23,172 nt of DNA from a virus, in the IMG/VR virus record IMGVR_UViG_3300028829_002682, positions 1 to 23,172 of that record, one strand, 5' to 3'. The notes beneath the pieces were generated by a model. That model was not told where the DNA came from, did not search any database, and saw only the letters and a list, made by a program, of their open reading frames with translations. Below are positions 2 through 22,133 of this stretch, piece after piece. The position numbers were made by a program, and so were the translations under genes. Positions within the stretch are counted from its first letter, which is position 1. Each line of letters begins with the position of its first letter.

Positions 2-1996
2 CCCGGCTTAAATAGACTCGGTGGAATCGGCCTTTCTATTTTATTTGCGGATCTTCTATTTGGAACAGACGAACAAGGTCGATTTACAAATATCATAGCT
101 AGTAGTATAGATAGTTCTATTAAGGCAGCGCTGTCAGTAGTTGGTCTTGATTTCGGTAGTGGCCTTAAAGAAGCAGGCGAAGAAGAAGGCGCTAGTATAT
201 TTTCTTACATATTCTTGGGGTTCGGAGCCTATTTAGCGGGTGCTACACTTACAAACTTAGTTAGCTCAATAAGTGGTGCTATTTTAGGCGCACTTAAGGC
301 TGGAACTTTAGCTGCTGGTAAAGCCTTTATAGCTGCGGGGGGTTTAGCTACATTCCTACCTGCCGGTGTATTTGCCTTATCCATTTCTATTTCAGATATA
401 GTGTTCAACAAGGATACAAAAATACCAGAGATTCGCAGAGGCAACGGCGCTAATACCCAAGGCGAAGGCGATGATCTCGTAAACACTGGCACGGCCTCAG
501 CAGTTAACAGCGTTACCGATAAATATTATCTTCCGGACGATCCGTATGGCTCACCGAGTGATCTTGGCGTACCGTATAATCTGGGTAAAATAGATGGTTT
601 AAAAGAAGCATTTGAGAAAAGATATCTTAACATTAATGTAAATAACCTTACCGTAACAGACGGTGAGCTTAATGTTAGCACTGATGCAGCCAACGCATTC
701 GGGTTACCTCAATATAGAAGAGCATCAGGTGGTCCTATTAGCGGTCCCGGTACAGGTACTTCTGATGATATTCCTGCTATGCTTTCTAACGGCGAATATG
801 TTATTAAGGCATCTTCGGCTAGGAAATTCGGAAGAGGGTTCTTAGATCGTATTAACCAAGGTGTTAACCCGCTTGGGTTTAATGGGGGCGGTCTAGTTGA
901 AGATGATCCAACTTTTATTAGACTTTTAGAACGAAGAGCAGCTCTGGGTATGTCGTTAAGGGGTGCAGCTCCTTCTGCCGTAGCAGGTATTAACGAAGAC
1001 CTAGTGGCGCTTAACAAACAAATCGCACAATACGCTGAAACAATTGCAAAAGACTCTGAATCAGCTGCAAAAGACTCTAAAGAAATTAACAACGGAGTCA
1101 AAACAGGTAACGCTCTTACTAAAGTGACCCAGAAATTGACTAAGGATATACTAAAAAGCCTTGATGAGAATGCCCTTGATGTTAGCCGTCAAGACTTCTT
1201 AGATACTGATTTCTTTGGTAGCGGGTTAGCTACTACTTCAACGTTTGATAGCACGGGCGCTTTTGCTGAGTCTCTTAAAACAGAAGAAGTTGACAGCACT
1301 CTTAAAAATGCCTTCTCTACTGCTTTAGGTCAAGCCCTACGGACAGGCGACGTAAAAGGTGCCTTAACTGGTCTTCTTGATACTGTTACAAATAAAATCA
1401 TTGACAACTTTGTTAATGGCATTGCAGACAGTCTGTTTGGCGAAGGTACAGGAATCCTTGGAAGCCTTGGAAATATCTTTGGCGGAGAAGAAGGCGAAAG
1501 CCCTTTATCCGGCCTTACAAAAGATCTCAAGAAAAGCGTAGGTGGTTTGTTTGAAGGTCTGTCAGATTCTCTCGGTGGACTTTTTGAAGGTATTGGTAGC
1601 TTGTTTAGTGGTGCAGGCGGCGGCGGCGGAGGTCTCTTAGGAGGTCTCTTTAGCATTGGTTCATCACTCTTGGGGGCCTTTGGAGGTATCGGTGGTACCA
1701 CAGGCTCATTCGGCCTTCCTAAAAGCTTCAGCCAAGGTGGAACTGTACCAAGCACAAACTACTCTCAGGCAGGTGTTGACTCTGTTCCTGCTCTACTCAC
1801 ACCCGGTGAAATGGTTGTGAAGCGCAGTGCAGTCAACAACATGAGGCAGCAAGGTGGAAACAACAGTCAGCAAGTTGTAAACTTAAACATCACTGGAGAC
1901 ATCTCAACAGCGACCAAGAAAGAAGTTATGAAGATGATTCCTCAGATTGCTGGTGGTGTTAACTACACTAACCGTCAAAACAACTACAAGGGTTAA
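2..1996 (+). CDS. Tape-measure-like tail/virion protein, C-terminal part (5' end outside window)
   Basis: The frame is open from the first bases of the window, so this is the C-terminal ~664 residues of a longer protein; the TTG at 215 is not a real start. Hydrophobic Gly/Ala-rich segments occur around nt 200-400, and a very Gly-rich stretch around nt 1612-1710. Two copies of a motif typical of phage tape-measure C-termini are visible: GGPISGPGTGTSDDIPAMLS followed by NGEYVI (nt ~729-810), and a second form with GVDSVPALLTPGEMVVK (nt ~1771-1821). Tape-measure proteins set tail length and assist DNA ejection. Similar motifs also occur in other large phage virion proteins, so internal virion protein is the alternative. 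A terminator follows directly, ending the structural transcription unit. Confidence 0.75.
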   Translation, partial: PGLNRLGGIGLSILFADLLFGTDEQGRFTNIIASSIDSSIKAALSVVGLDFGSGLKEAGEEEGASIFSYIFLGFGAYLAGATLTNLVSSISGAILGALKAGTLAAGKAFIAAGGLATFLPAGVFALSISISDIVFNKDTKIPEIRRGNGANTQGEGDDLVNTGTASAVNSVTDKYYLPDDPYGSPSDLGVPYNLGKIDGLKEAFEKRYLNINVNNLTVTDGELNVSTDAANAFGLPQYRRASGGPISGPGTGTSDDIPAMLSNGEYVIKASSARKFGRGFLDRINQGVNPLGFNGGGLVEDDPTFIRLLERRAALGMSLRGAAPSAVAGINEDLVALNKQIAQYAETIAKDSESAAKDSKEINNGVKTGNALTKVTQKLTKDILKSLDENALDVSRQDFLDTDFFGSGLATTSTFDSTGAFAESLKTEEVDSTLKNAFSTALGQALRTGDVKGALTGLLDTVTNKIIDNFVNGIADSLFGEGTGILGSLGNIFGGEEGESPLSGLTKDLKKSVGGLFEGLSDSLGGLFEGIGSLFSGAGGGGGGLLGGLFSIGSSLLGAFGGIGGTTGSFGLPKSFSQGGTVPSTNYSQAGVDSVPALLTPGEMVVKRSAVNNMRQQGGNNSQQVVNLNITGDISTATKKEVMKMIPQIAGGVNYTNRQNNYKG

Positions 1997-2028
1997 AGGC
2001 CCGTTCAATAATAATAAAAATGAACTTC

Positions 2029-2064
2029 GGATTACCCCTTCGGGGGTGTCCTTTTCTTTTTATT
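2029..2064 (+). terminator. Intrinsic terminator with UUCG loop after the tape-measure-like gene
   Basis: GGATTACCCC, a TTCG loop, then GGGGTGTCC and a T-rich run (TTTTCTTTTTATT). The stem pairs with one bulge or wobble. It closes the virion gene unit just before the first promoter-like repeat. Confidence 0.85.
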
Positions 2065-2075
2065 AAAAAGTCATT

Positions 2076-2112
2076 AAAAAAGTGAGAAAATTAACGCATC
2101 TATAATGATAGA
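2076..2112 (+). promoter_or_regulatory. Promoter-like repeat, copy 1 (candidate phage RNA polymerase promoter)
   Basis: First of three copies that are identical over 32 nt (2076-2107). The core reads TGAGAAAATTAACGCATC followed by TATAATG, then ATAGAAA as in copy 3. It lies between a terminator and the HNH gene. If +1 is the base after CTATA, positions -16 to -14 (AAT) and -5 to -1 (CTATA) match the T7 promoter consensus. A host sigma70 -10 box (TATAAT) without a good -35 is the alternative reading. Confidence 0.7.
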
Positions 2113-2126
2113 AAGCTTTAAAAGTA

Positions 2127-2432
2127 ATGCCAAACTATAAAGACATGTTTAAACTAAAGAACGGTAAACTGGTTTGGAAAGTTTCCCGTGGTAGAGTTGC
2201 GGCAGGTCAATCAGCCGGTACAAACCATGGAGATGGTTATAAAACAGTCCGTATAGACGGTAAAGCACATTATGTTCATAGGATTGTAAAAGAACTATCG
2301 ACTGGTAAAAAAGTAAACGGAACCGTTGATCACAAAAATAGAAAACGCGGTGACAATCGCCCTGCCAACTTGAGAGTTACAACTACATCTCAAAACAATA
2401 AAAATAGAAAAAGTTGGAAACGTAAAAAATAA
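2127..2432 (+). CDS. HNH homing endonuclease (free-standing)
   Basis: A 101-residue basic protein. Its C-terminal half carries an HNH nuclease signature: H51-R-I, D68-H69-K-N71, D76-N77-R78, N81-L-R83 and a run of Asn/Lys at 90-93. This matches the HNH_3 type of phage homing endonucleases, which nick or cut double-stranded DNA to spread their own gene. There is no clear Shine-Dalgarno, only an A-rich leader. The gene is a self-contained cassette: promoter-like repeat upstream, its own UUCG terminator downstream, then another copy of the promoter repeat. That suggests later acquisition. The fold call is firm; the target site is unknown. Confidence 0.85.
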   Translation: MPNYKDMFKLKNGKLVWKVSRGRVAAGQSAGTNHGDGYKTVRIDGKAHYVHRIVKELSTGKKVNGTVDHKNRKRGDNRPANLRVTTTSQNNKNRKSWKRKK

Positions 2433-2437
2433 TAATT

Positions 2438-2467
2438 GGTTCATCCCTTCGGGGGTGGGCCTTTTTT
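2438..2467 (+). terminator. Intrinsic terminator with UUCG loop after the HNH gene
   Basis: GGTTCATCCC, TTCG loop, GGGGTGGGCC, then TTTTTT. All ten stem positions pair if G-U pairs are allowed. The loop and inner stem match the terminator at 2029. Confidence 0.9.
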
Positions 2468-2482
2468 ATCAAAATTGGCACC

Positions 2483-2519
2483 AAAAAAGTGAGAAAATTA
2501 ACGCATCTATAATGGAGAA
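2483..2519 (+). promoter_or_regulatory. Promoter-like repeat, copy 2
   Basis: Identical to copy 1 over 32 nt (2483-2514), ending in TATAATG and followed by GAGAAAG. It lies between the HNH terminator and the gene at 2540. It shares a CACC extension upstream with copy 3. Confidence 0.7.
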
Positions 2520-2539
2520 AGACAACCATAGGAGGTTTT

Positions 2540-2794
2540 ATGTCTATCCGCTTTGAAGTTACGTCTCAGATATGCCCCCTTCAAATTGAAGGAGACATTG
2601 ACGACGTTAACTTTTATTTCCACGCTCGTGGGAATAGCGTCTACTGCACTATTGGCAGTGACATGTACTCGCCGGATTTCTTTCTGAAACAGGAAGTAGA
2701 TCTTGTCGAGGAAGGCGTGTTTTGTAGTAGCCAAAAGGTTACTCTGAAACAGGCATTGGAGTTTGTTATGATGACTTACGAGTTGTCAAAATAA
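2540..2794 (+). CDS. Hypothetical protein, 84 residues
   Basis: The start at 2540 follows a strong Shine-Dalgarno (AGGAGG, 2530-2535) and lies about 25 bases after promoter-like copy 2. The protein is soluble and mildly acidic, with alternating hydrophobic residues suggesting beta strands in the first half and a helix near the end. It has four Cys (12, 37, 57 and others near that spacing) but no metal motif I recognise. Product unknown. It is the only gene between two promoter-like repeats, so it is expressed as a separate small unit, possibly late or host-directed. Confidence 0.7.
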   Translation: MSIRFEVTSQICPLQIEGDIDDVNFYFHARGNSVYCTIGSDMYSPDFFLKQEVDLVEEGVFCSSQKVTLKQALEFVMMTYELSK

Positions 2795-2796
2795 AC

Positions 2797-2827
2797 CCAC
2801 ACCCTGAACACGGTGTAAAACTGTTCA
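2797..2827 (+). repeat. 31-nt intergenic repeat, copy 1, with inverted repeat
   Basis: Starts with CCACACCCTGAACA and ends with ACTGTTCA; it differs from the copy at 3589 at a single base (C at 2811, T at 3603). It contains the inverted repeat TGAACA/TGTTCA, and an alternative stem ACACC/GGTGT that would exclude the first. In this copy a short TTTTG run follows, so it may act as a weak terminator ahead of promoter-like copy 3. Confidence 0.7.
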
Positions 2828-2837
2828 TTTTGTCACC

Positions 2838-2874
2838 AAAAAAGTGAGAAAATTAACGCATCTATAATGATAGA
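2838..2874 (+). promoter_or_regulatory. Promoter-like repeat, copy 3
   Basis: Identical to copies 1 and 2 over 32 nt (2838-2869), with the ATAGAAA downstream extension of copy 1. It drives the unit beginning with the secreted protein at 2908. Confidence 0.7.
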
Positions 2875-2907
2875 AATGGTTCTATCGCACCAAATGGAGG
2901 AATCCAA

Positions 2908-3273
2908 ATGAAGAAACTTCTCGCTGTGTTTATGATGTCTGTAGTTTGTGCTGTTTCGTCTACCGCCAAAGCAGAAGAAGTTTACTCTCCTGCCAATGAC
3001 GATATCACTTGTTCCGATATCAGTTATGCAGGTGCAGCTGCAGGAGTTGTTGTTGGTGTTGTTGCAGCGGCAGGTATCGTTGCAGCGTTGCCAGTAGTTG
3101 GTGCCGGTGCTGCTGCCGGTGCTACTGTGGGTTGGCTGGGTATGTGGTCTGGCCCCGTATTGTTGGGTACTACTCTGCCAGTAATGTCATTGGCAGTACC
3201 TATTAACAGTACAATGCTGGGTCTTACGGGTTACGTAACCGGCGGTGTTGGTTGCGAAGTGTTGTCAGAGTAA
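2908..3273 (+). CDS. Secreted Gly/Ala-rich envelope protein (signal peptide)
   Basis: A 121-residue protein with a clear Sec signal peptide: MKK, hydrophobic core at 4-18, and AKA/EE as a likely cleavage site after residue 22. The mature part has a long Gly/Ala/Val-rich hydrophobic region (about 40-75) with several GxxxG spacings, and a second hydrophobic region (82-112). Only two Cys remain after cleavage (35 and 116), near the two ends, so one periplasmic disulphide is possible. Shine-Dalgarno GGAGG lies just upstream. It probably acts in the periplasm or a membrane. Superinfection exclusion or a lysis accessory role would fit, but I recognise no family. Confidence 0.75.
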   Translation: MKKLLAVFMMSVVCAVSSTAKAEEVYSPANDDITCSDISYAGAAAGVVVGVVAAAGIVAALPVVGAGAAAGATVGWLGMWSGPVLLGTTLPVMSLAVPINSTMLGLTGYVTGGVGCEVLSE

Positions 3274-3284
3274 TTTTACAGTCC

Positions 3285-3339
3285 TGGGTCATGACTTTAA
3301 ACTGACCCAACTTGATTGCACGGGCTTTGTGGCCTGTGC
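3285..3339 (+). other. Two tandem RNA hairpins between genes
   Basis: Hairpin 1 is TGGGTCA (3285-3291) with TGACCCA (3303-3309), a perfect 7-bp stem. Hairpin 2 is GCACGGGC (3318-3325) with GCCTGTGC (3332-3339), 8 bp with one G-U pair. Neither is followed by a T-run, so they look like processing or stability elements rather than terminators. The ribosome binding site of the next gene follows 10 bases later. Confidence 0.6.
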
Positions 3340-3360
3340 ACAGTCCAAAGGAGATATAAA

Positions 3361-3579
3361 ATGGACAATCCAGTTACGCTCGCAGAAATGACCGGTATCC
3401 CAGTTTGGGAGCTTCTTACCGGGCCGTTCAAAGCGTTTATGTTCCTCTTAGTTCTTTGCGTGTGTATTCACATTTGTTTTGAAATCATGGATGCCTATCG
3501 TGATTCATGGTTGCAAAACGTTGTCCAACAACTTCGTTGGAAAGTAGTTTCTACAACGGATTCTTTGTTCACTAAGTGA
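3361..3579 (+). CDS. Small membrane protein, 72 residues
   Basis: ATG at 3361 is chosen because AAAGGAGATATAAA precedes it; an upstream TTG at 3316 lies inside the hairpin region. One strong membrane segment is seen (about residues 22-43, rich in Phe, Leu, Val and Cys), followed by a charged amphipathic C-terminal part. It sits upstream of the holin candidate and endolysin, so a lysis accessory or antiholin role is possible. No family recognised. Confidence 0.7.
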   Translation: MDNPVTLAEMTGIPVWELLTGPFKAFMFLLVLCVCIHICFEIMDAYRDSWLQNVVQQLRWKVVSTTDSLFTK

Positions 3580-3588
3580 ATCAAACAT

Positions 3589-3619
3589 CCACACCCTGAA
3601 CATGGTGTAAAACTGTTCA
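3589..3619 (+). repeat. 31-nt intergenic repeat, copy 2, with inverted repeat
   Basis: Thirty of 31 bases match the copy at 2797-2827. The inverted repeat TGAACA/TGTTCA and the alternative stem ACACC/GGTGT are both preserved; the only change lies between them. No T-run follows and no promoter repeat is nearby, so termination alone does not explain its conservation. Confidence 0.7.
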
Positions 3620-3660
3620 AGCTTAAACAACCAAAGTAAACCCTTACAACGGAGACCAAA

Positions 3661-3951
3661 ATGTACAAACTGTTCCGTGGAACCACCTTTGAAGAGGCGG
3701 TCCTTCTGTCAAACGACTACCAAACCCGTACGGTGACTCACTGGACAGACTCGTTCGAGAAAGCTAAGATGTACTCTAAGGGTGCTGTTATTACTCTTGA
3801 GTTTGACGAGCTTCCTCGTACAATGCCTGAGATGACTATTGCTGAAGGCGACGCTACTCATGGCAACATCCGTGAGTGGAAGATTACCAAAGAGTTCTAT
3901 GAAGGGACTCTTGCTAACTGGTGCGAAGAAAGCACTGTAACTTACTGCTGA
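3661..3951 (+). CDS. Small protein with possible ADP-ribosyltransferase-like features
   Basis: A 96-residue acidic protein with Shine-Dalgarno GGAG at 3651. The N-terminus reads YKLFRGTT (R6-G7). A segment T-H-W-T-D-S-F-E-K-A-K-M-Y-S (26-39) follows, then a strand AVITLEF, and later R-E-W-K-I (71-75). This order, an Arg-Gly strand, a T/S-rich strand followed by a helix with AxxY, then a Glu-containing strand, resembles small R-S-E type ADP-ribosyltransferase folds. Phages use such enzymes (T4 Alt, ModA) to modify host proteins. The similarity is by eye only and the protein is very short, so the function is tentative; the gene itself is solid. Confidence 0.5.
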   Translation: MYKLFRGTTFEEAVLLSNDYQTRTVTHWTDSFEKAKMYSKGAVITLEFDELPRTMPEMTIAEGDATHGNIREWKITKEFYEGTLANWCEESTVTYC

Positions 3952-3969
3952 ATGAAATAGGAGTTTGTT

Positions 3970-4284
3970 ATGTTTGGAGAAATATTTGTTTTAGCCTTAA
4001 CAGGTTTTATCTTAAGATGCCTATTTGAAATGGGTATGAACTGGATACGAACAATATTAGGGTTTAGGAAAAAAGAGGATGAACTAAAGTTTACCGATTT
4101 ACTCTTAGGGGTAAAAGACTTGGGAACACAATTGCTAATGCTAGTTGCTATTATTGTGTGTTTTACCTACTTCGGGAAGAACCCTCTTAACCAAGACCCA
4201 TACTTTCTTCTTGGCTTGTTTTTACCAGAGGCTGGTAAAATGCTTGTATCTCTTATGAGAGATTCTAAACCGCAACCGAAATAG
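3970..4284 (+). CDS. Membrane protein, holin candidate
   Basis: A 104-residue protein with hydrophobic segments at about 4-20, 51-69 and 78-96, and charged residues clustered between them (FRKKEDELK) and at the C-terminus (RDSKPQPK). Shine-Dalgarno AGGAG (3959-3963). Its stop is 13 bases ahead of the SleB-type endolysin start. Size, segments and position fit a holin, which forms holes in the inner membrane so the endolysin can reach the wall. There is no sequence motif that proves it, as holins are diverse. Confidence 0.6.
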   Translation: MFGEIFVLALTGFILRCLFEMGMNWIRTILGFRKKEDELKFTDLLLGVKDLGTQLLMLVAIIVCFTYFGKNPLNQDPYFLLGLFLPEAGKMLVSLMRDSKPQPK

Positions 4285-4297
4285 GAGATGATTAGCA

Positions 4298-4735
4298 ATG
4301 CTTGAAGCAGCAATCGTATGTTTGGCCATGAACATTTATCACGAAGCTCGTGGTGAAGAGTTTGAAGGCCAAGTAGCAGTAGCCGAAGTTACTATGAATA
4401 GAGTAGCTTCGGAAAAGTTCCCCGATACCGTCTGTGATGTTGTCTGGCAGAAAAACCAGTTCTCATGGACGAACGATGGACGCTCCGATAAGACCCCTGA
4501 GACAGAGGCTTACAAGGAGGCCGTCTCTATAGCAACTGAGTTTGTTGATGGGGGTTCTAATCTAGAGGTCGGGCATGGTGCTCTCTGGTACCACACATCG
4601 GCAGTCTCGCCCTTCTGGGCTGACCACTATCGACTACTGGGTAATATCGGAAATCATTACTTTTATGATGACGGTAAAAACTATGCACCTGAAACTTCTC
4701 CTGTTCCAACTTTAAAACCTGAAAGGAATATGTGA
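4298..4735 (+). CDS. SleB-like cell wall hydrolase (endolysin)
   Basis: A 145-residue protein matching the Hydrolase_2/SleB family across almost its whole length: CLAMNIYHEARGEEFEGQ (8-25), AVAEVTMNRV, FPDTVCDVVWQ and QFSW. These are the conserved blocks of peptidoglycan-cleaving SleB/CwlJ-type enzymes; the Glu residues in HEARGE (16, 20) include the likely catalytic acid. There is no separate signal peptide, so export needs a holin, and the holin candidate is immediately upstream. It would degrade murein at the end of infection. The stop overlaps the next start (TGATG). Confidence 0.9.
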   Translation: MLEAAIVCLAMNIYHEARGEEFEGQVAVAEVTMNRVASEKFPDTVCDVVWQKNQFSWTNDGRSDKTPETEAYKEAVSIATEFVDGGSNLEVGHGALWYHTSAVSPFWADHYRLLGNIGNHYFYDDGKNYAPETSPVPTLKPERNM

Positions 4736-4965
4736 TGGGCGATCTTAAAGAATGCTTGAAAAAAGTTAAGTCCGAGTATGCTGTTGTTGGATTTGATGAC
4801 AAAGGTGACTTCGAACTACTTTACGAAGCCGACTTCTTGTCTAGCGCACAACAGTGGATGGATAGGTATACTCGCTGGGGTGACTTTGGCGGGTGGCATA
4901 GTATTGTAGCGGTAGACACTGACACGATTACTGCACAGTATTACATGCAACTTCACCCTCATTAA
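4735..4965 (+). CDS. Hypothetical acidic protein, 76 residues
   Basis: ATG at 4735 overlaps the endolysin stop by one base; GTG at 4732 is an alternative start. Shine-Dalgarno AAAGGA (4722-4727) fits 4735. The protein has a helical N-terminus, a short beta-like centre (YAVVGFDDKGDFELLY) and a Trp-rich segment (42-55). No family recognised. It is the last gene before promoter-like copy 4 and is co-expressed with lysis genes. Confidence 0.65.
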   Translation: MGDLKECLKKVKSEYAVVGFDDKGDFELLYEADFLSSAQQWMDRYTRWGDFGGWHSIVAVDTDTITAQYYMQLHPH

Positions 4966-5002
4966 ACTGAGAAAAACAACGCATCTATAGCGGTAAGATG
5001 AG
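4964..5002 (+). promoter_or_regulatory. Promoter-like repeat, copy 4 (divergent)
   Basis: Twenty of 22 positions match the core of copies 1-3 from TGAGAAAA to AACGCATCTATA (4968-4989). The bases after CTATA differ (GCGGTAAGATGA, against ATG plus GATAGAAA or GAGAAAG). Conservation that stops at CTATA is what is expected if transcription starts there. Confidence 0.65.
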
Positions 5003-5022
5003 AAGCAAGGAGAACATAGCTG

Positions 5023-5547
5023 ATGGCTACTATATACGACTTTAAAGACGGTAATGGCCCTGTTCCTGCTAAACAGCATCCTAACGGTGGTGGATGGGTG
5101 GCGGATACAGCTTATGTAGCGGAAACGGCTTGTGTAGGCCCTTACGCCAAGGTGTATGAGCACACTGTTGTGTATGGTAACGCTAGGGTGTTTGATAACG
5201 CTATGGTGTACGGTGACGCTTTGGTGTCTGGTTGCGCTTTGGTGTCTGGTGACGCTATGGTGTACGGTGACGCTATGGTGGACGGTGACGCTTTGGTGTT
5301 TGGTGACGCTAGGGTGTATGGTAACGCTCAGGTGTATGGTTACGCTTTGGTGTCTGGTGACGCTAGGGTGCATGGTAACACTAGGGTGTATGGTAACGCT
5401 AGGGTGTTTGATAACGCTGAGGTGTTTGATAACGCTATGGTGTATGGTAACACTAGGGTGTATGGTAACGCTGAGGTGTCTACGCTAGGGTGTATGGTAA
5501 CGCTCAGGTGTATGGTTACGCTTTGGTGTTTGGTCACACAACCTTAG
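5023..5547 (+). CDS. Hexapeptide-repeat left-handed beta-helix protein with frameshifted C-terminus
   Basis: After a ~45-residue N-terminal cap, residues 50-152 are 17 six-residue repeats of the type V-Y-G-N/D-A-x (VYGNAR, VFDNAM, VYGDAL and so on), the pattern of a left-handed beta-helix as in hexapeptide acyltransferases and related structural proteins. No catalytic His or acyltransferase loop is visible, so a structural or binding role is more likely. After S153 the repeats go out of frame: the unit at ~5476-5490 lacks four bases (GGTG), and a 21-residue Cys-rich tail ends at TAG 5545. In the frame -1 to it the repeats continue and end at TAA 5565-5567. Shine-Dalgarno AAGGAG precedes the start. 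Confidence 0.75.
   Translation: MATIYDFKDGNGPVPAKQHPNGGGWVADTAYVAETACVGPYAKVYEHTVVYGNARVFDNAMVYGDALVSGCALVSGDAMVYGDAMVDGDALVFGDARVYGNAQVYGYALVSGDARVHGNTRVYGNARVFDNAEVFDNAMVYGNTRVYGNAEVSTLGCMVTLRCMVTLWCLVTQP
5170..5533 (+). repeat. 18-nt tandem coding repeats of the hexapeptide gene
   Basis: About 20 units of 18 nt, most of the form GGTGACGCTNNGGTGTNN. Units differ at a few positions, giving the six-residue protein period. One unit near 5481 is 14 nt long. The repetitive sequence also creates long false reading frames on both strands. Confidence 0.85.
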
Positions 5548-5565
5548 ACCATGGAGAACATGAGT

Positions 5566-5597
5566 AATGACTAACACATACGATAGCGGTAAGATGA
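5566..5597 (+). promoter_or_regulatory. Degenerate promoter-like copy 5
   Basis: ATAGCGGTAAGATGA (5583-5597) is identical to 15 bases of copy 4 (4987-5001). The bases just before, AACACATACG, resemble AACGCATCT of copy 4 with one inserted base. The upstream TGAGAAAA block is absent, so activity is doubtful; it may be a decayed duplicate. Confidence 0.4.
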
Positions 5598-5608
5598 AAG
5601 GAATCTAA

Positions 5609-5821
5609 ATGATCGACTACAAGCTAGCTCAAGTCTACGACGAAGGCTTTGATGACGGCTTTGACCAAGGCTACAAAGAAGGTCTTGAAGCGGGTTATGA
5701 AGCCTCAAACGATAGCGTCTATGACCGAGGCTACATGGACGCAATTGATAAGTTTGAAGAAGCTTATCTCAAGGGTGACCTTGATGTCCCTACAACCATC
5801 AAACTAATGCGCTGTAACTAA
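5609..5821 (+). CDS. Small acidic GxxxG-repeat protein
   Basis: A 70-residue protein. Residues 13-29 have Gly at every fourth position (GFDDGFDQGYKEGLEAG), a GxxxG ladder like that in FliH/YscL-type helices, which promotes close helix-helix packing. The rest is acidic and helical. ATG directly follows a TAA, with AAAGGA at 5597-5602 as ribosome binding site. Likely a helical homodimer or partner of a host or phage protein. No family match recognised. Confidence 0.7.
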   Translation: MIDYKLAQVYDEGFDDGFDQGYKEGLEAGYEASNDSVYDRGYMDAIDKFEEAYLKGDLDVPTTIKLMRCN

Positions 5822-5842
5822 ACCCTAAAAGGAGCAAACAAC

Positions 5843-6046
5843 ATGGATACTAACAAAGTGGAACTCTCTGAAATGACCTTCACTAAACTGGTTGAAGCAA
5901 TCAACGACAAATGGTCTCACACATACATCGATGTTCCTGAAATGGAAGATCAGCCTGAGTATGATGTTGAGATGGAACGTGCTCTTGCTGAGATTGCTGA
6001 GCTGCAAGGCAAAGATCAGAACTACGACGACAACTATGAAGCGTGA
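5843..6046 (+). CDS. Hypothetical acidic protein, 67 residues
   Basis: Strong Shine-Dalgarno AAGGAG (5829-5834). Very acidic: at least 18 Asp/Glu against about six Lys/Arg, concentrated in the C-terminal half, which is predicted helical (DVEMERALAEIAEL). Small acidic early phage proteins often bind host enzymes or mimic DNA, but nothing here proves that. Followed by two hairpins and the helix-turn-helix gene. Confidence 0.7.
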   Translation: MDTNKVELSEMTFTKLVEAINDKWSHTYIDVPEMEDQPEYDVEMERALAEIAELQGKDQNYDDNYEA

Positions 6047-6056
6047 TAACTCTAAC

Positions 6057-6098
6057 TGCTCATCCGCGTGGTGAGCACTTTAGAGCGATCTTGCTCTA
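6057..6098 (+). other. Two tandem hairpins or palindromes upstream of the helix-turn-helix gene
   Basis: TGCTCA (6057-6062) pairs with TGAGCA (6072-6077); TAGAGC (6081-6086) pairs with GCTCTA (6093-6098). Both are perfect 6-bp inverted repeats in a 72-base gap with no T-run. They may be RNA processing hairpins, or operators for the DNA-binding protein encoded next. Confidence 0.5.
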
Positions 6099-6118
6099 TA
6101 ACCTCAATGGAGACTACT

Positions 6119-6367
6119 ATGACTAAATCTAACACTCGCGGCATGATCGATAACATCAGCAACGGCGCTAACTATGCTCTTAAGCACGGCTATCGCTATA
6201 CTACTCGTAACGGCGGCTGGAGCAATCTTGATCGTGTTGCAATTGCCACGGCAGTCGCTGAGGGCCGTTTGACTGTAACTCAGGCGGCTAACAAAATTGG
6301 TTGTTGCCGACTCTCTATCAAAAACTGGGTCAAAACACTTGACCAAAACAACCCACGCCTAGGCTAA
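6119..6367 (+). CDS. Small helix-turn-helix DNA-binding protein
   Basis: ATG at 6119 is chosen over the upstream GTG at 6068 because GGAG (6109-6112) fits it and the GTG lies in the hairpin region. The 82-residue product is basic. Residues ~40-73 (AIATAVAEGRLTVTQAANKI, then GCCRLSIKNWVKTL) fit a homeodomain-like helix-turn-helix as in transposase and repressor N-termini: LTVTQAANKIG is the turn and the following helix the reader. No other domain fits in the length. Likely a transcription regulator or DNA-packing factor. A strong terminator follows. Confidence 0.6.
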   Translation: MTKSNTRGMIDNISNGANYALKHGYRYTTRNGGWSNLDRVAIATAVAEGRLTVTQAANKIGCCRLSIKNWVKTLDQNNPRLG

Positions 6368-6399
6368 CACCCTACTGTTATTGTGTTCCTCCCTAACTT

Positions 6400-6455
6400 C
6401 CCTCTGGTGGCCCTTCGGGGTCACTGGAGGGCTTTTCCCCTTTCTATTTTTTTTT
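6400..6455 (+). terminator. Strong intrinsic terminator, 14-bp stem with UUCG loop
   Basis: CCCTCTGGTGGCCC, TTCG loop, GGGTCACTGGAGGG; all 14 positions pair with three G-U pairs. A T-rich tail including nine T in a row follows (to 6455). It separates the accessory genes from the DUF1127 and RNA polymerase genes. Confidence 0.92.
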
Positions 6456-6472
6456 CGACAAAGGATAACATC

Positions 6473-6673
6473 ATGTTTAACCCAATCCAAGAAACTAACA
6501 ACTGGATTTTTCGATTCTGGAACTTTGTAATCACTTGGCGTAAACATCGTAATACTATTAAATCCTTGAACCAGCTTACAGACGCGCAACTTCGAGATAT
6601 CGGTCTTGAGCGTCACGGTTTAGACGGGCTTATCTGGCACCCTGAAGACTTAAAGTCTCGCGGCACTAAATAA
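6473..6673 (+). CDS. DUF1127 family small Arg-rich protein
   Basis: ATG at 6473 has AAAGGA upstream; the longer frame from 6383 would run through the terminator. The 66-residue product has an aromatic amphipathic N-terminus (NNWIFRFWNFVITWRKHR) and the DUF1127 core L-x-Q-L-T-D-A-Q-L-R-D-I-G-L-E-R (residues 31-46). DUF1127 proteins are common in Alpha- and Gammaproteobacteria. The best studied, CcaF1 of Rhodobacter, binds RNA and affects RNA maturation and turnover. In this phage the gene precedes the RNA polymerase, so a role in host RNA metabolism is an attractive inference. Confidence 0.82.
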   Translation: MFNPIQETNNWIFRFWNFVITWRKHRNTIKSLNQLTDAQLRDIGLERHGLDGLIWHPEDLKSRGTK

Positions 6674-6674
6674 T

Positions 6675-6755
6675 ATGTTTTCACCAGCAGAAGCTTTACT
6701 CCTTTTATTTATGATCCTTATTACACTCTTTTATAAGGGCGGCGACGAAGAGTAA
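6675..6755 (+). CDS. 26-residue membrane peptide
   Basis: Reads MFSPAEALLLLFMILITLFY then KGGDEE. It is one hydrophobic helix of about 16 residues with a charged C-terminus. The ATG begins one base after the DUF1127 stop, so translation is probably coupled; there is no separate Shine-Dalgarno. Too short for usual gene finding. Its strong membrane-helix pattern and tight junction make it credible. Confidence 0.5.
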   Translation: MFSPAEALLLLFMILITLFYKGGDEE

Positions 6756-6780
6756 TATTCTGCTTGGTTATTCCAGTTTA

Positions 6781-6800
6781 ATAGGGTGCTTCGGCACTAT
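6781..6800 (+). other. UUCG hairpin in the leader of the RNA polymerase gene
   Basis: ATAGGGTGC, TTCG, GCACTAT: GTGC/GCAC plus ATA/TAT around a two-base bulge. No T-run follows, so it is not a normal terminator. It ends about 8 bases before the AAGGA ribosome binding site and may affect mRNA stability or translation of the polymerase. Confidence 0.45.
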
Positions 6801-6818
6801 GCCTATACAAGGAACAAG

Positions 6819-8972
6819 ATGAATACTATCAAACGACTCGTAGAAGATCTAAAATACCGACAAACTTTCCTAAACAAAAGGCATTCCGCTTATAACCTTG
6901 CTACAGCAGATCCTAAATTCTTAATTGAGTTTACCTATCCACACGTCCTAACCGGCTTGGAACGAAAAGCTACACTAACTGACATAATCGCTACTATGGG
7001 CGGTCGTTTACAACAAAAGCTAAAGCTTCCTAGAAACAGCATTGAAGCAGTTCAGTTTGGTTGGTATATTTTAATCTCTTACTTTGAGGAAGGCATACTG
7101 TCTTACTTCTGTAAAAGAATGAAAGGCAAAGGTAAGCATACAACTTATCAGCTAAAAGTTACAAACTGGGAAGCTATTCAGTCTCTGATCGAAGAAGTTG
7201 ATGATGAAGTAGCAGATATGTTTCCTAAGCTAAAACCCCTAGAGCCTTGGGTTGGCGAACTGCTGCACAAAGAAACAGGCAAGCCACTAATTCGCAATGC
7301 TCACCGTGATGCGGAAAAGGCGATAAAGACAACAGATCTGTCTTATCTAACAGACACTCTTAATAAGCTTAACAACACAGGATGGCGTATTAACAAATAC
7401 ATTCTAACAGTCTACAAACACTGTTTAACGAGTGTAGATAACCCTTTTAAGTTTGCTAAAGAAGTAGACAAGACAAAGCGTACATCGTTGTTAATGGAAA
7501 CAGAAGCAGTATTCCGACTAGCAACCAAGCATCAAGATAATGTGTTTTATCATCTGTATAACTGCGACTTTCGTGGTCGTATTTATCCCAATACTGCTTA
7601 TCTACACGAACAATCCTCTGACAATGCCAAAGGTCTTCTACTGCTAGACGAACCAACAATGCTTGGTAAAGACGGCTTCTACTGGTTGTGTGTTCATACT
7701 GCTAACATGTGGGGTAATGACAAAGTGTCTCTTGACGACCGAGCTAGGTTCGCTGAAGAGAACGCTAAAGAGTATATTGCTTACGCGGAAAACCCGTTAA
7801 CAAACATAGGATGGATGAAGGCAGATAAACCATTCTGCTTTCTTGCTTGTTGTCTTGAAATCAAGATGATTAAGGAATGGCGTGAAGATGGGTTGTCAAT
7901 GGAAGACTTCCCGTCTTCTCTGCCTATCTACATTGATGGCTCTAACAACGGTGTTCAGCACCTAACTGCAATGTCTAAAGACGAACAGGTTGCACCACTT
8001 GTAAACCTTGTTCCTCAAAAGCTACCCGGCGATGTGTATATGTTTATCGCTGATCATGCTATGACAGCAGTAGCTAAGTCATTATCTAACCTAGACAAAG
8101 ACACAATAGACTCCTTTGAGCCTTACTTTGAAAAGATCATCGCTCTCAAACGAGACTGTGAGCGTTGGCCTGAAGGTACAGAGAAATACAAGCTAGCTGT
8201 ATCTGCGTTAAAAGAGTTTAAGAATCATAACTATGACTTCAGCAAGAAGATCTGGCCCGTGTTCTGGTCTGCTATCACAGATAGGAAGATCTGGCGTAAG
8301 ACTGTTAAACGGCCTGTTATGACTCTTGGCTACGGCGGTACTCAGTTCGGTATGGGTGAGCAGATCAAAGACGACACCCGTAGTATCAACGAGTATCTGC
8401 GTGACAAAGAAGACATCTGGGCATACAAGTTGGGTCATTTGGTCTATGAAACCTGTTACAAGGAACTCAAGGGACCAGCTAAACTACTTCAGATGTTTGT
8501 TAAGTTGGCTGAACGACAGAATGAGAAAGAAGTTCCTATTTCTTACTCTGCACCTGTAACTAACTTCCCGTTTGTACACAAATACAGAAAGGCAAAATCT
8601 GAGCGCGCTGTGTTAAAGTATGGCGATGATAAAGTTAGAATTAGGTTACAAGTATGGGAGCAGTCAACGCTAGACCACAACAAGCAAAAGTCTGGTGCTG
8701 CCCCTAATATTGTTCATAGTCTTGATGCTGTTCATCTAACTATGACAGTCCATGACGCACACTATCCTGTTACTGTTGTACACGATTCTTTCGGATGTAC
8801 GGCAGGTAATATGGAGCATATGTTCAAACATGTTCGACAAAAGTTTGTTGAGCTGTATAAGCTACAACCACTAGAACATGTCTTATCACAGATGGACTCT
8901 CTAGACCTCATCCCAGCGAAAGGAACTCTTAACGTTCAAGAAGTCATACAATCTGACTTCGCCTTCGCTTAA
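6819..8972 (+). CDS. T7-like single-subunit DNA-directed RNA polymerase
   Basis: ATG at 6819 follows AAGGAA; a GTG at 6786 is an upstream alternative inside the leader hairpin. The 717-residue product has all core motifs. Motif A is IYIDGSNNGVQHLTAM with D373 (T7 D537); motif B is KRPVMTLGYGGTQFG with K497 and Y505 (T7 K631, Y639); PNIVHSLDAVHL precedes motif C, VVHDSFG, with D656 (T7 D812). It is about 165 residues shorter than T7 RNA polymerase (883), mostly in the N-terminal part. It would transcribe phage genes from its own promoters; the repeats at 2076, 2483, 2838 and 4968 are the candidates. Which promoter drives this gene is not visible. Confidence 0.96.
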   Translation: MNTIKRLVEDLKYRQTFLNKRHSAYNLATADPKFLIEFTYPHVLTGLERKATLTDIIATMGGRLQQKLKLPRNSIEAVQFGWYILISYFEEGILSYFCKRMKGKGKHTTYQLKVTNWEAIQSLIEEVDDEVADMFPKLKPLEPWVGELLHKETGKPLIRNAHRDAEKAIKTTDLSYLTDTLNKLNNTGWRINKYILTVYKHCLTSVDNPFKFAKEVDKTKRTSLLMETEAVFRLATKHQDNVFYHLYNCDFRGRIYPNTAYLHEQSSDNAKGLLLLDEPTMLGKDGFYWLCVHTANMWGNDKVSLDDRARFAEENAKEYIAYAENPLTNIGWMKADKPFCFLACCLEIKMIKEWREDGLSMEDFPSSLPIYIDGSNNGVQHLTAMSKDEQVAPLVNLVPQKLPGDVYMFIADHAMTAVAKSLSNLDKDTIDSFEPYFEKIIALKRDCERWPEGTEKYKLAVSALKEFKNHNYDFSKKIWPVFWSAITDRKIWRKTVKRPVMTLGYGGTQFGMGEQIKDDTRSINEYLRDKEDIWAYKLGHLVYETCYKELKGPAKLLQMFVKLAERQNEKEVPISYSAPVTNFPFVHKYRKAKSERAVLKYGDDKVRIRLQVWEQSTLDHNKQKSGAAPNIVHSLDAVHLTMTVHDAHYPVTVVHDSFGCTAGNMEHMFKHVRQKFVELYKLQPLEHVLSQMDSLDLIPAKGTLNVQEVIQSDFAFA

Positions 8973-8993
8973 TAGAGGCCCATAATGACCGAA
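8973..8993 (+). repeat. 21-nt repeat directly after the RNA polymerase stop, copy 1
   Basis: TAGAGGCCCATAATGACCGA plus A, identical to 15890-15910. In both places the repeat starts on the base after a stop codon and lies 66-70 bases before the next start. Its ATAATGA-x-x-GAA core matches ATAATGATAGAAA of the promoter-like repeats. Confidence 0.75.
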
Positions 8994-9038
8994 TAGGTCT
9001 GAAACCAAACAATCTCAAAACTCCAAAAGGAAATCCAA

Positions 9039-9560
9039 ATGGCTATTCTCAAAAATGTAGAACTATTCTTCGCTAAACTCGACCCAAAGCGCCCTAACGA
9101 TCGTTTTGATTCTGAAAACCCAACTTGGGAAGTACAGATTCGTACCAATGACAAGGCTCAGGCTAAAGAGTGGAAGAATATGAACATTAACGTCCGTCCA
9201 GATGAGAACGATGACGGCGTATTCTACAAAGCCACACTCAAGAAGAAATCCAAGAAACGCGATGGTTCAGATAATAACCCTGTTACTCTCGTTAATGGTT
9301 CTCTTGAGCCGATCGATCCAAACACCCTCGGAAACGGTTCTAAGGCAAACGTTCGGGTTTATCAGTACGAATACAATGTAGGTGGTAAAGAAGGTATTGC
9401 CACTATGCTTATGGCTGTTCAGGTTACAGAACTCCGCGAGTACACACCAAAGCCACGCGAAGACGACTTCGAAATGGTTGAGACTAAAGTTATCAAGGTA
9501 GCGGATAATCAGGATGTTGACGACGACATTCTATCTAAAACAGATGACATCGACTTCTGA
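9039..9560 (+). CDS. Single-stranded DNA-binding protein, T7 gp2.5-like
   Basis: A 173-residue protein with Shine-Dalgarno AAAAGG. The N-terminal ~130 residues read as beta strands with basic and aromatic residues (PTWEVQIRTND, KATLKKKSKKRDG, NVRVYQYEYNVGGKEG). The C-terminus is strongly acidic and ends in Phe (DVDDDILSKTDDIDF), the hallmark of gp2.5-type phage SSBs, whose acidic tail contacts DNA polymerase and helicase. It coats ssDNA at the fork and in recombination. It is the first gene after the RNA polymerase, as in T7-like middle regions. Family assignment rests on tail, size and context. Confidence 0.78.
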   Translation: MAILKNVELFFAKLDPKRPNDRFDSENPTWEVQIRTNDKAQAKEWKNMNINVRPDENDDGVFYKATLKKKSKKRDGSDNNPVTLVNGSLEPIDPNTLGNGSKANVRVYQYEYNVGGKEGIATMLMAVQVTELREYTPKPREDDFEMVETKVIKVADNQDVDDDILSKTDDIDF

Positions 9561-9578
9561 TAGGTAACAAACACAACA

Positions 9579-9607
9579 GGGAGGCTCTTAACAGGGCTTC
9601 CCTTTTT
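9579..9607 (+). terminator. Intrinsic terminator after the SSB gene
   Basis: GGGAGGC (9579-9585) pairs with GCTTCCC (9596-9602), with one G-U pair and a 10-base loop, followed by TTTTT. Likely partial termination, giving more SSB than downstream products. Confidence 0.75.
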
Positions 9608-9623
9608 ATCTAAAGGAGAAACT

Positions 9624-10067
9624 ATGTCTAAAGAATATGTATATCTAGCAGGTCCAATGGAAGACTGCTCTGAATCGGTTATGACTGAATGGCGTACTCA
9701 TCTTGCTTCTGAGCTAATGTTGTGGGATATCGAATGTCTTGATCCTACACGACGAGTGTCATTTCACAATCAGTTGTATGATACAACTCTACAAGATGAT
9801 ATTCGTAACATGAACCTTTGTAAGCGTATCTTTAAGCAGGATATGCAGGACATTTCTAACAGCCGTGTTATTATTGCTGATGTTCGTCGTAAGTCAGGAC
9901 GAGGCACAGGGACTTCAATGGAACTAATGTTTGCTCACATGAAGAACAAAATCATTATCATGTGGGGTGATCATAACGATCACATTCATCCTTTCTATGA
10001 GTCTATCTACACTGAAAAGCACTACGACTTAAACGATGTTATTGAGGCGGTCAAGGAGTATTACTAA
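9624..10067 (+). CDS. Nucleoside 2-deoxyribosyltransferase-like protein
   Basis: A 147-residue protein. YVYLAGPM (5-12) is the first strand and nucleotide loop, D40-P is the mid motif, VIIADV (82-87) a buried strand, and GTGTSMELMFAH (94-105) carries the probable catalytic E100. This is the layout of the nucleoside deoxyribosyltransferase / nucleotide N-hydrolase (Rcl, MilB) superfamily, which breaks or swaps the N-glycosidic bond of deoxynucleosides or nucleotides. It fits base salvage, clearing of unwanted nucleotides, or making of a modified base. Shine-Dalgarno AAAGGAGAA. Stop overlaps the next start (TAATG). Substrate cannot be read from the sequence. Confidence 0.8.
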   Translation: MSKEYVYLAGPMEDCSESVMTEWRTHLASELMLWDIECLDPTRRVSFHNQLYDTTLQDDIRNMNLCKRIFKQDMQDISNSRVIIADVRRKSGRGTGTSMELMFAHMKNKIIIMWGDHNDHIHPFYESIYTEKHYDLNDVIEAVKEYY

Positions 10068-14816: not shown

Positions 14817-15112
14817 TTACTGTATTTGAATTTGAACTACTAGCCGAACGTTTCCTTAAGGAAGGAACTACTCAAGATACTTTGTTTGCAGGTCTTTCTT
14901 CTGAAGTTGGAGAGCTAATGGGTGAAAGAGTTGATGAGCTACGTGTAGACAAAGGGACTCCAGGTGATATTAACTATCGCATGGCTAGTGAGCTAGGGGA
15001 TATTCTATGGTACGTTGCTATGATTGCTCACAAGCGAGGTTATACACTTTCTCAGATTATGGACATGACTATCGACAAGCTTGATGACAGGGAGCGCAAT
15101 GGAAAAGCGTAA
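14813..15112 (+). CDS. MazG-like nucleotide pyrophosphohydrolase
   Basis: A 99-residue all-alpha protein with the metal-binding pattern of MazG-type enzymes: E31-V-G-E34 and E60-L-G-D63, followed by ILWYVAMIAHKRGYTL. MazG enzymes hydrolyse nucleoside triphosphates to monophosphate and pyrophosphate; in phages they are proposed to clean the nucleotide pool or alter the alarmone level of the host. Single-domain size is normal for phage forms. It precedes a dCMP deaminase-like gene, which supports dNTP housekeeping. Confidence 0.85.
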   Translation: MITVFEFELLAERFLKEGTTQDTLFAGLSSEVGELMGERVDELRVDKGTPGDINYRMASELGDILWYVAMIAHKRGYTLSQIMDMTIDKLDDRERNGKA

Positions 15113-15518
15113 GTATGACAAAATGTTTATGCAGATGGCTTTAGCTGCCGCTGAACAGTCTCAAGCAGATAACTTAAAAGTCGGTGCTGTAGCAGTTAAG
15201 GACGGTAACGTCATTGGCATTGGAATAAATGGCACACCCGTTGGGTGGTACACTAACAAATGTGAGGATGAAAATGGAAATACTAAACAAGAAGTTTATC
15301 ATGCGGAAGCTAACATGGTTGCTAAAATTGCTCGTTCGACTAACTCTTCAGTTGATGCTACGTGTTACGTCACTCATAGCCCTTGCATCGACTGCGCTAA
15401 ACTCTTGGTGCAAACGGGTTTTGTCAGGGTCGTATTTGAACGATCATATAAACGAATAGACGGAATCCGTTTTCTAGAGAATATAGGGGTTAAATGCGAA
15501 TGGATAGCGACACAATGA
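15099..15518 (+). CDS. Deoxycytidylate deaminase-like protein
   Basis: ATG at 15099 chosen over 15081 because the conserved region begins with KYDKMFMQMALAAAEQS and it overlaps the MazG gene less. 139 residues. Zinc motifs: H68-A-E70 and P95-C96-I-D-C99, the signature of the cytidine/dCMP deaminase superfamily, with H68, C96 and C99 binding zinc and E70 as proton shuttle. VGAVAVKDGNVIGIGINGTP is the usual first strand pair. It would convert dCMP to dUMP for thymidylate synthesis. No thymidylate synthase is in this window. Confidence 0.88.
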   Translation: MEKRKYDKMFMQMALAAAEQSQADNLKVGAVAVKDGNVIGIGINGTPVGWYTNKCEDENGNTKQEVYHAEANMVAKIARSTNSSVDATCYVTHSPCIDCAKLLVQTGFVRVVFERSYKRIDGIRFLENIGVKCEWIATQ

Positions 15519-21554: not shown

Positions 21555-21784
21555 TGGATATTAACGCTATTTACGATCAAATGGACATCATAGTCGAGTC
21601 AAGTGAGATTGAGGAAGATGCTATTCGTGGATTTGAAGGTCTTGCCTTTGAAGAGGGTCTAACAACCGACTCTATAGAGTTTGCATGGTTCTACAGCGGT
21701 ATCGTCTTTGCTGTTGCCTCTATGATCATTGAAGAAGAAGAGAATGATGATGAATATCCTGAAGAAGATGAAGAAGAAAGCTGA
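21554..21784 (+). CDS. Hypothetical acidic protein, 76 residues
   Basis: TAATG overlap with the previous gene; AGGAG upstream. A helical body with a hydrophobic segment (FAWFYSGIVFAVASMII, about 43-59) followed by a tail that is almost only Glu/Asp. Possibly membrane-associated with an acidic cytoplasmic tail. No family recognised. Confidence 0.6.
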   Translation: MDINAIYDQMDIIVESSEIEEDAIRGFEGLAFEEGLTTDSIEFAWFYSGIVFAVASMIIEEEENDDEYPEEDEEES

Positions 21785-22133
21785 AGATTCTGAAAGTGTC
21801 TCGAACACGCGGTTAGTGGCCGCTATTATACATAAAGGTAAGGTGGTGTCTTATGGTAAGAACCAATACAAGACCCACCCTACTATGATTAAGTTTTCCA
21901 AGAACCCTCATGCTATATTCCTTCATGCTGAAGTTGATGCCATTAACAAGGCTAAGAAGGTTCTTGGAGAAGACTTATCTAAGACTAAACTAATTGTAAT
22001 GAGAATCCTGAAAGACGGAACCTATGCTAATGCTAAACCCTGTTGTGGTTGTAGTAAGTGCATAGAACATTACGGTATTACAAACGTTATATACACAACC
22101 GGAGAAACAACAAATGTACTTGGTAATTGGTAA
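21768..22133 (+). CDS. Cytidine/dCMP deaminase-fold protein 2
   Basis: 121 residues from ATG 21768 (the frame is open back to 21729, but that part only mirrors the acidic tail of the previous gene). Zinc motifs H53-A-E55 and P91-C92-C-G-C95, with C98 also near, fit the deaminase superfamily; LVAAIIHKGKVVSYGKNQ is the usual first hairpin. It differs strongly from the deaminase at 15099. The motif FLHAEVDAINKA and PCCGC spacing recall deaminases acting on free nucleosides or nucleotides, possibly tRNA-type. Two in one phage suggests distinct substrates. Confidence 0.75.
   Translation: MKKKAEDSESVSNTRLVAAIIHKGKVVSYGKNQYKTHPTMIKFSKNPHAIFLHAEVDAINKAKKVLGEDLSKTKLIVMRILKDGTYANAKPCCGCSKCIEHYGITNVIYTTGETTNVLGNW

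Follow-up and report, generated by a model that had tools for sequence, protein, structure and literature searches.

Does a phage that encodes its own RNA polymerase also carry, ahead of the polymerase gene, the promoters that this enzyme reads? The question is raised by a viral contig of 23,172 bases (IMG/VR record IMGVR_UViG_3300028829_002682; hereafter the window, meaning this whole stretch), in which a short element occurs four times between the tape measure gene and the gene for a single-subunit, T7-like RNA polymerase (Table 1). A preliminary description of the window took these elements for candidate promoters, to be read by the polymerase that the phage itself encodes. We consider this very probably correct, because the link between element and polymerase gene, the co-variation of the element with the polymerase clade and the register of a predicted RNA hairpin all favour it at the level of sequence. 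What we infer from the sequences is the recognition of the elements by the polymerase and the exact start and, likewise, the feedback and the timing of transcription.

Four elements and a single-subunit polymerase

Read directly from the sequence, copies 1 to 3 are identical over 32 nucleotides (nt), which consist of six A residues, a G, TGAGAAAATTAACGCATCTATA and ATG; the fourth, TGAGAAAAACAACGCATCTATA, agrees with the others at 20 of the 22 core positions. As the preliminary description stated, all four are intergenic and on the + strand, their cores being covered by no + strand open reading frame (ORF) of at least 40 amino acids (aa), and all stand upstream of starts, with 22, 28, 41 and 33 nt between the predicted +1 and the next ATG-initiated ORF (copies 1 to 4, respectively). 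A search of the entire window with the pattern given in that description, allowing up to 3 mismatches, returned exactly these four matches, all on the + strand, and 100 dinucleotide shuffles of the window returned none. The elements had also been said to lie often just after terminators, which holds for copies 1 and 2, each preceded by a terminator-like stem, and does not hold for the other two. The reported departure of copy 4 from the others directly after CTATA is present (GCGG vs ATGA or ATGG). Separately, ATAGCGGTAAGATGA at 4987-5001 begins within copy 4 and is repeated at 5583-5597, before an ORF at 5609, without the remaining core.

The T7-like polymerase that had been assigned to position 6819 is recovered by PF00940 (E-value 2.6e-79) and phrog_414 (E-value 3.8e-130). 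The AlphaFold2 model of the 717-aa protein has a mean predicted local distance difference test score (pLDDT) of 87.6 and a predicted template modelling score (pTM) of 0.84. Elongation complexes of T7 head its structure matches (Z up to 42.8), and its comparison with the T7 polymerase-promoter complex 1cez gives a Z of 34.7 and a root-mean-square deviation of 3.3 over 656 residues (T7 75-883). The catalytic T7 residues D537, K631, Y639, H811 and D812 align to D373, K497, Y505, H655 and D656 of the window protein, and the latter are invariant across 19 aligned polymerases. Two beta hairpins of the model, 94-114 and 592-613, correspond in the alignment to the T7 intercalating hairpin (228-245) and specificity loop (the stretch that follows 739); according to the model, both structures are present in the window polymerase. 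Approximately 50 residues of the T7 N-terminal domain are without a counterpart.

The element family and its link to the polymerase gene

Scanning viral contigs for the element returned 42 stretches with its exact 20-base (NNAAC) form and 112 with positions -14 to -10 left free, although at least 19 of the 112 are probable chance matches in coding sequence, as judged by flanks or core, with three recurring protein-coding contexts. Bacterial genomes scanned for a long form of the element gave no exact match. The phages DSS3_VP1 and DSS3_PM1 have two copies each immediately 3′ of the tape measure gene. These differ at one core position (AAG for AAC), and at up to 5 mismatches neither phage has another site. 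Twenty records of 32-75 kb carry 1-4 sites at up to 1 mismatch in a single cluster each, a count that omits one coding-like match each in G043, G044 and G050 and leaves G050 with zero; the weaker matches in these records comprise a few chance-like ones at 3 mismatches, with two or three on the opposite strand. One short contig (G007) has five sites at up to 3 mismatches.

Across the alignment of 144 sites, TGAGAAAA at -22 to -15 forms the conserved block, while conservation beyond the fixed pattern spans -29 to about +4. Among the free positions, an A-run occupies -29 to -24, position -23 is G or C, -13 is T or C, -12 and -11 are mostly purines, and -10 is nearly free. Position +1 is A in 136 sites, G in 7 and T in 1; +2 is T in 134, and +2 to +4 are mainly TGA. 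The TATA is followed by a purine at +1 in 143 of the 144 sites, as in a T7-type promoter. The rows of this logo were chosen by the pattern and include coding chance matches and near-copies, and the constancy of its 17 fixed positions is in part built in, which does not apply to the free positions and flanks; in particular, TCTATA is constant (within one mismatch) because the scan pattern demanded it. A filter for A-rich upstream sequence reduced 111 sites to 99, and of the 12 removed, eight look coding and four are probably real (copy 4 of the window, L013, L019 and L121). The match of AAT at -16 to -14 to the T7 promoter, claimed earlier, does not hold for the family as a whole: T occupies -14 in only 63 of the 144 sites, and the conserved block sits at -22 to -15.

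The upstream box lies beyond the reach of the T7 contacts, and the AT-rich loop of the polymerase is shortened. Both points would suit a host RNA polymerase guided either by a phage sigma or by a phage factor with affinity for the TGAGA box. We regard such an arrangement as highly improbable. A TCTATA beside a +1 start is the layout of a single-subunit polymerase promoter, and the domains Sigma70_r2 and Sigma70_r4 were each found in 0 of 2 relatives, DSS3_VP1 and DSS3_PM1, other kinds of factor not having been searched for; the controls for the sigma domains were positive in 10 and in 14 of 14 genomes. The phage sigma was rejected on this negative domain search of the two relatives.

Two sets of sequences bear on the link between element and polymerase gene. 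In the first, 23 of 44 records encode a polymerase 51-60% identical to that of the window, and the 21 records without one have at most 3.2 kb of contig after the last site (up to 3 mismatches). In the second, 45 of 48 further viral contigs match the relaxed motif (G070 by a coding-like match), and 23 of these 45 carry the polymerase. The 22 contigs with a site and no polymerase, which include the coding-like G070, retain 4,968, 3,012, and 1,411 nt or less downstream, and the remaining 3 of the 48 have neither polymerase nor site, only coding-like matches. Because the gap from site to polymerase gene is 6.2-6.7 kb in DSS3_VP1 and DSS3_PM1, the short contigs are uninformative on the absence of the polymerase.

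The reverse search started from the polymerase. A single polymerase sequence found no matches in the viral contigs, and an alignment of 19 polymerases gave 424 loci, of which the best 80 were used. Where 3 kb or more of upstream sequence is available, 43 of 43 of these loci have a site; with 1-3 kb the figure is 7 of 18, and with less it is 0 of 19. Fifteen distinct polymerase loci are on contigs outside the 112 motif stretches because they carry other versions of the element, ...GTATCTATA in one clade and TGGGG...CCCTCTATA in other clades. Across 36 loci, the 265 kb upstream of the polymerase gene contain 82 sites and the 279 kb downstream contain 1; the opposite strand of the same loci has 0 sites in 544 kb. 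These loci are a manual choice among the 40 that combine a site with 3 kb or more of upstream sequence (L009, L078, L089 and L109 were omitted), and the presence of a site in 36 of 36 therefore follows from that choice. The relaxed finder was designed after the CCC variants described below were known, its controls being the opposite strand and the downstream side, and it overlooks real-looking sites with A-poor upstream sequence (L044). Among 66 distinct polymerases, 47 have a site, including 40 of the 41 with at least 3 kb upstream, the exception being Pelagibacter phage Kolga EXVC016S. As a side observation, the polymerase gene of L078 (4323-7218; also in G044 and G066) is interrupted at DFR|GRIYP by approximately 0.7 kb with a 172-aa ORF, HNH-like by eye, which suggests an intron, or a comparable insertion, carrying a homing endonuclease.

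Probable promoter classes, predicted start site and 5′ hairpin

The version of the element, GCATCTATA, GTATCTATA or CCCTCTATA, tracks the polymerase clade. The T7 specificity loop reads its promoter at -9 to -7, and by these three positions the 44 labelled polymerases fall into 28 GCA, 6 GTA, 9 CCC and 1 ACA. On the polymerase tree, GTA forms one clade and CCC two, separated by GCA polymerases. The labels change 5 times vs a shuffled mean of 16.0, with 0 of 200 shuffles as low, although near-copies and shared descent weaken this test. By class, GTA needs one change, CCC two (forced by the branches starred on the tree) and GCA five. The co-variation of -9 to -7 with the polymerase clade fits the earlier proposal that the phage enzyme would have a specificity of its own, distinct from that of T7. 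In L217 (record G058), several CCC promoters are accompanied by one GCA promoter with a hairpin, which was perhaps acquired as a cassette from another phage.

Many transcripts beginning after CTATA are predicted to open with a hairpin. A stem of at least 4 pairs with an arm from +3 occurs at 83 of the 149 sites that all classes provide (in shuffles, 16.1 on average and at most 26), namely 80 of 119 GCA, 2 of 22 CCC and 1 of 8 GTA sites. Position +2 is paired in 82 of the 83 hairpins (T-A in 79, T-G in 3) and +1 in 13; among the 38 distinct hairpins, the counts are 37 and 6. The arms vary with compensating changes (GATAC/GTATC, GATATA/TATATC, GAACT/AGTTC, GAACC/GGTTC, GATAGAA/TTCTATC and GATAAA/TTTATC). 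In 8 of the 83, the arms GAAGA/TCTTC also form the beginning of a probable HNH gene, and these eight hairpins may be a coding coincidence. A comparison of the window and four loci with Rfam gave no match at the gathering score. Because the hairpin starts at +2, the 5′ end of the RNA would lie at +1 or +2, directly after CTATA, and the start that the preliminary description had placed there is consistent with this register, which calls for a 5′ end at or before +2. At eleven loci (L008, L011, L022, L028, L031, L041, L042, L085, L101, L137 and L142), an ATG exactly at the predicted +1 opens a 306-nt ORF, probably an HNH gene of the same length as that of the window, and the mRNA of these ORFs may be leaderless.

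The register also bears on a reading in which the elements are early promoters for the host sigma70 holoenzyme, with CTATAAT supplying a TATAAT -10 hexamer and the cluster feeding early genes and the phage polymerase. The hexamer is present in most of the family, given the counts of A at +1 and T at +2, and the cluster does sit upstream of the polymerase gene. However, a sigma70 start, 6-7 nt after TATAAT and near +9, would cut the +2 hairpin in half. There is no -35 element at a spacing of 16-18 nt and no + strand consensus hit at any copy, and the sigma70-like hits in 1800-9800 number 14 (mean in shuffled sequence, 14.2); one hit on the minus strand, 2133-2105, starts beside copy 1. Furthermore, the conservation from -29 to about +4, with a -22 to -15 box that is no -35, and the class changes at -9 to -7, which fall outside the -10 hexamer and track the polymerase clade, speak against a sigma70 promoter. 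We therefore think this reading improbable; it was rejected chiefly on the hairpin register and the absent -35.

Another possibility is that the elements are not promoters at all but operators, replication start sites or parts of a spreading mobile cassette made of an HNH gene and its flanks. An HNH gene does follow copy 1, homing cassettes take their flanks along, and two classes are mixed in L217. Against this stand the restriction of the sites to a single strand upstream of the polymerase, their position shortly before ORFs of varied kinds, the purine at +1, and the RNA hairpin register with its compensating arm changes, and we believe that there is scarcely any chance that this explanation is right.

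Several observations weigh against the elements being promoters of the phage polymerase. Sites are few per genome in the 20 records of 32-75 kb, unlike in T7, and L146, with a polymerase 65% identical to that of the window, and L176 have no site in approximately 2.7 kb upstream. The AT-rich recognition loop (T7 93-101) is shortened by an 8-residue gap in the window protein and by a longer one in some relatives; together with the -22 to -15 box, this suggests upstream contacts unlike those of T7. The hairpin is a GCA trait on which the start-site argument depends, and within the window, it is found at copy 3, copies 1, 2 and 4 being without a clear one. The hexamer TATAAT occurs in three of the four window copies (copy 4 has TATAGC, which in turn speaks against sigma70). 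L150 has only a one-mismatch ACA form, and L217 has both CCC and GCA promoters upstream of one polymerase. No column of the specificity loop cleanly separates GCA from CCC polymerases, and in a 15-row clade, 8 of 707 columns separate the two, none of them within the loop; at position 609, Q, R, T or H predominate in one group and S, E or N in the other, a pattern that L023 breaks. Finally, the classes follow phylogeny and near-copies are present, and shared descent could explain part of the association between class and polymerase.

A proposed transcription scheme and its relation to known systems

The layout of the window was read from ORFs and matches to Pfam and PHROGs. The end of the tape measure gene is followed by small genes, a cell wall hydrolase gene and the RNA polymerase gene, and then by genes for a family A DNA polymerase, a primase-helicase and a B12-type ribonucleotide reductase, the last (19192-21057) assigned by weak Pfam matches. 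The product of the gene after copy 4 is strongly repetitive, with repeats of the YdcK type.

Table 1. Positions of the elements and of the neighbouring genes and stem-loops in the window.
Feature	Position	Strand	Remarks
Terminator-like stem-loop	2033..2048	+	3′ of tape measure gene, upstream of copy 1
Copy 1	2076..2107	+	A-run, core 2083-2104, predicted +1 (A) 2105; before HNH gene
HNH endonuclease gene	2127..2432	+	101 aa; first ORF after copy 1
Terminator-like stem-loop	2438..2461	+	3′ of HNH gene, upstream of copy 2
Copy 2	2483..2514	+	Core 2490-2511, predicted +1 (A) 2512; before 84-aa ORF
84-aa ORF	2540..2794	+	First ORF after copy 2; no match in Pfam or PHROGs
Copy 3	2838..2869	+	Core 2845-2866, predicted +1 (A) 2867; before 121-aa ORF
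Predicted 5′ hairpin of transcript 3	2868..2887	+	TGATAGAA-ATGG-TTCTATCG, +2 to +21; same sequence in L005
121-aa ORF	2908..3273	+	First ORF after copy 3; no match in Pfam or PHROGs
Copy 4	4968..4989	+	Core only, predicted +1 (G) 4990; before beta-solenoid gene
Beta-solenoid repeat protein gene	5023..5547	+	174 aa; first ORF after copy 4
Single-subunit T7-like RNA polymerase gene	6819..8972	+	717 aa; downstream of all four copies

In the scheme that we favour, the polymerase would read duplex DNA from about -22 to -1, recognising the TGAGA box and the A/T run at -22 to -15, tolerating variation at -14 to -10 and then reading GCATCTATA; the TATA part would be melted, and the RNA would start at the purine after CTATA. 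The host polymerase would presumably begin the programme, and the phage polymerase, once made, would fire the promoter cluster. Transcription may be organised in small units, in which a terminator and a promoter are followed by a gene, with or without a 5′ hairpin, because two copies adjoin terminator-like stems and many transcripts of relatives would open with the +2 hairpin. Since the cluster is followed, on its own strand, by the polymerase and replication genes, read-through may give positive feedback on the polymerase. More tentatively, and with real doubt, we suggest that the promoter is bipartite (the -22 to -18 box plus -9 to -1), unlike the T7 layout, that at least three natural specificities (GCA, GTA and CCC) have arisen, with repeated switches, and that some members of the family act on DNA with deoxyuridine (dU) instead of deoxythymidine.

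The nearest named relatives of the polymerase, at 50% identity, are those of DSS3_VP1 and DSS3_PM1 (Naomviridae), phages of Ruegeria pomeroyi. Their element is one core change away, in the same position after the tape measure gene, and the order of their replication genes is similar; this kinship is judged on the polymerase, the element and the gene order of a 23-kb fragment. The ribonucleotide reductase is of the B12 type in the window vs a two-subunit annotation in the two phages. The window also encodes two proteins resembling deoxycytidylate (dCMP) deaminase (15081-15518 and 21729-22133). According to PMC12697855, the DNA of both phages carries dU in place of deoxythymidine, and DSS3_VP1 uses a dCMP-deaminase-like enzyme to this end; the passages of that paper that were searched mention no promoter, transcription or RNA polymerase. 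Because dU templates are said to inhibit T7 polymerase (PMC6486633), the enzymes of this group may be adapted to uracil.

After these two phages, the closest named polymerase is that of Kolga EXVC016S (with phage Aegir), at 31.5% identity, and in the 48,659 bases of Kolga, the relaxed motif has 0 sites and no intergenic repeat of a comparable kind was found. A distant fold relation exists to the N4 virion RNA polymerase (3c46, Z 20.9), and many CCC sites resemble the N4 hairpin promoters in containing GGGG...CCC. A promoter of the N4 type was rejected by eye: this arrangement is frequent in the CCC class and absent from GCA and some CCC sites, and the DNA hairpin is not conserved, because the GCA class and some CCC sites (TGAGA...CCC) are without the inverted repeat.

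Single-subunit polymerase promoters are best known from T7-like podoviruses. The element is like the promoters of T7, T3, SP6 and K11 in being short and probably read by a single-subunit polymerase, with CTATA at -5 to -1 and a predicted purine start; the strongest T7 transcripts also open with a 5′ hairpin. T7-type promoters have a conserved block at approximately -17 to +6 that is AT-rich at -17 to -13, whereas the 144 sites depart from these limits, with a box at -22 to -15, an A-run reaching -29 and variable positions -14 to -10. The element thus differs from the four promoters in its additional upstream box, the tolerant stretch after it, the triplet at -9 to -7 (GCA, GTA or CCC), a predicted start at A, its confinement to one small cluster and its carriers, which are relatives of Naomviridae; the window polymerase is also shorter than that of T7. 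The open-licence titles, abstracts and passages searched contain no report of this consensus, its layout, its three versions, the hairpin leader or its occurrence in relatives of Naomviridae, and the letter strings of the element brought up no phage title among the matches listed, one mycovirus paper apart. Although a phage single-subunit polymerase that reads its own promoter is a known arrangement, the consensus, the layout, the versions, the leader and the carriers appear to be new. A polymerase and its promoters can be traced over dozens of phage contigs in which the promoter switches in step with the enzyme; how such a specificity shifts without killing the phage thereby becomes directly testable, with ready-made pairs of enzyme and probable promoter.

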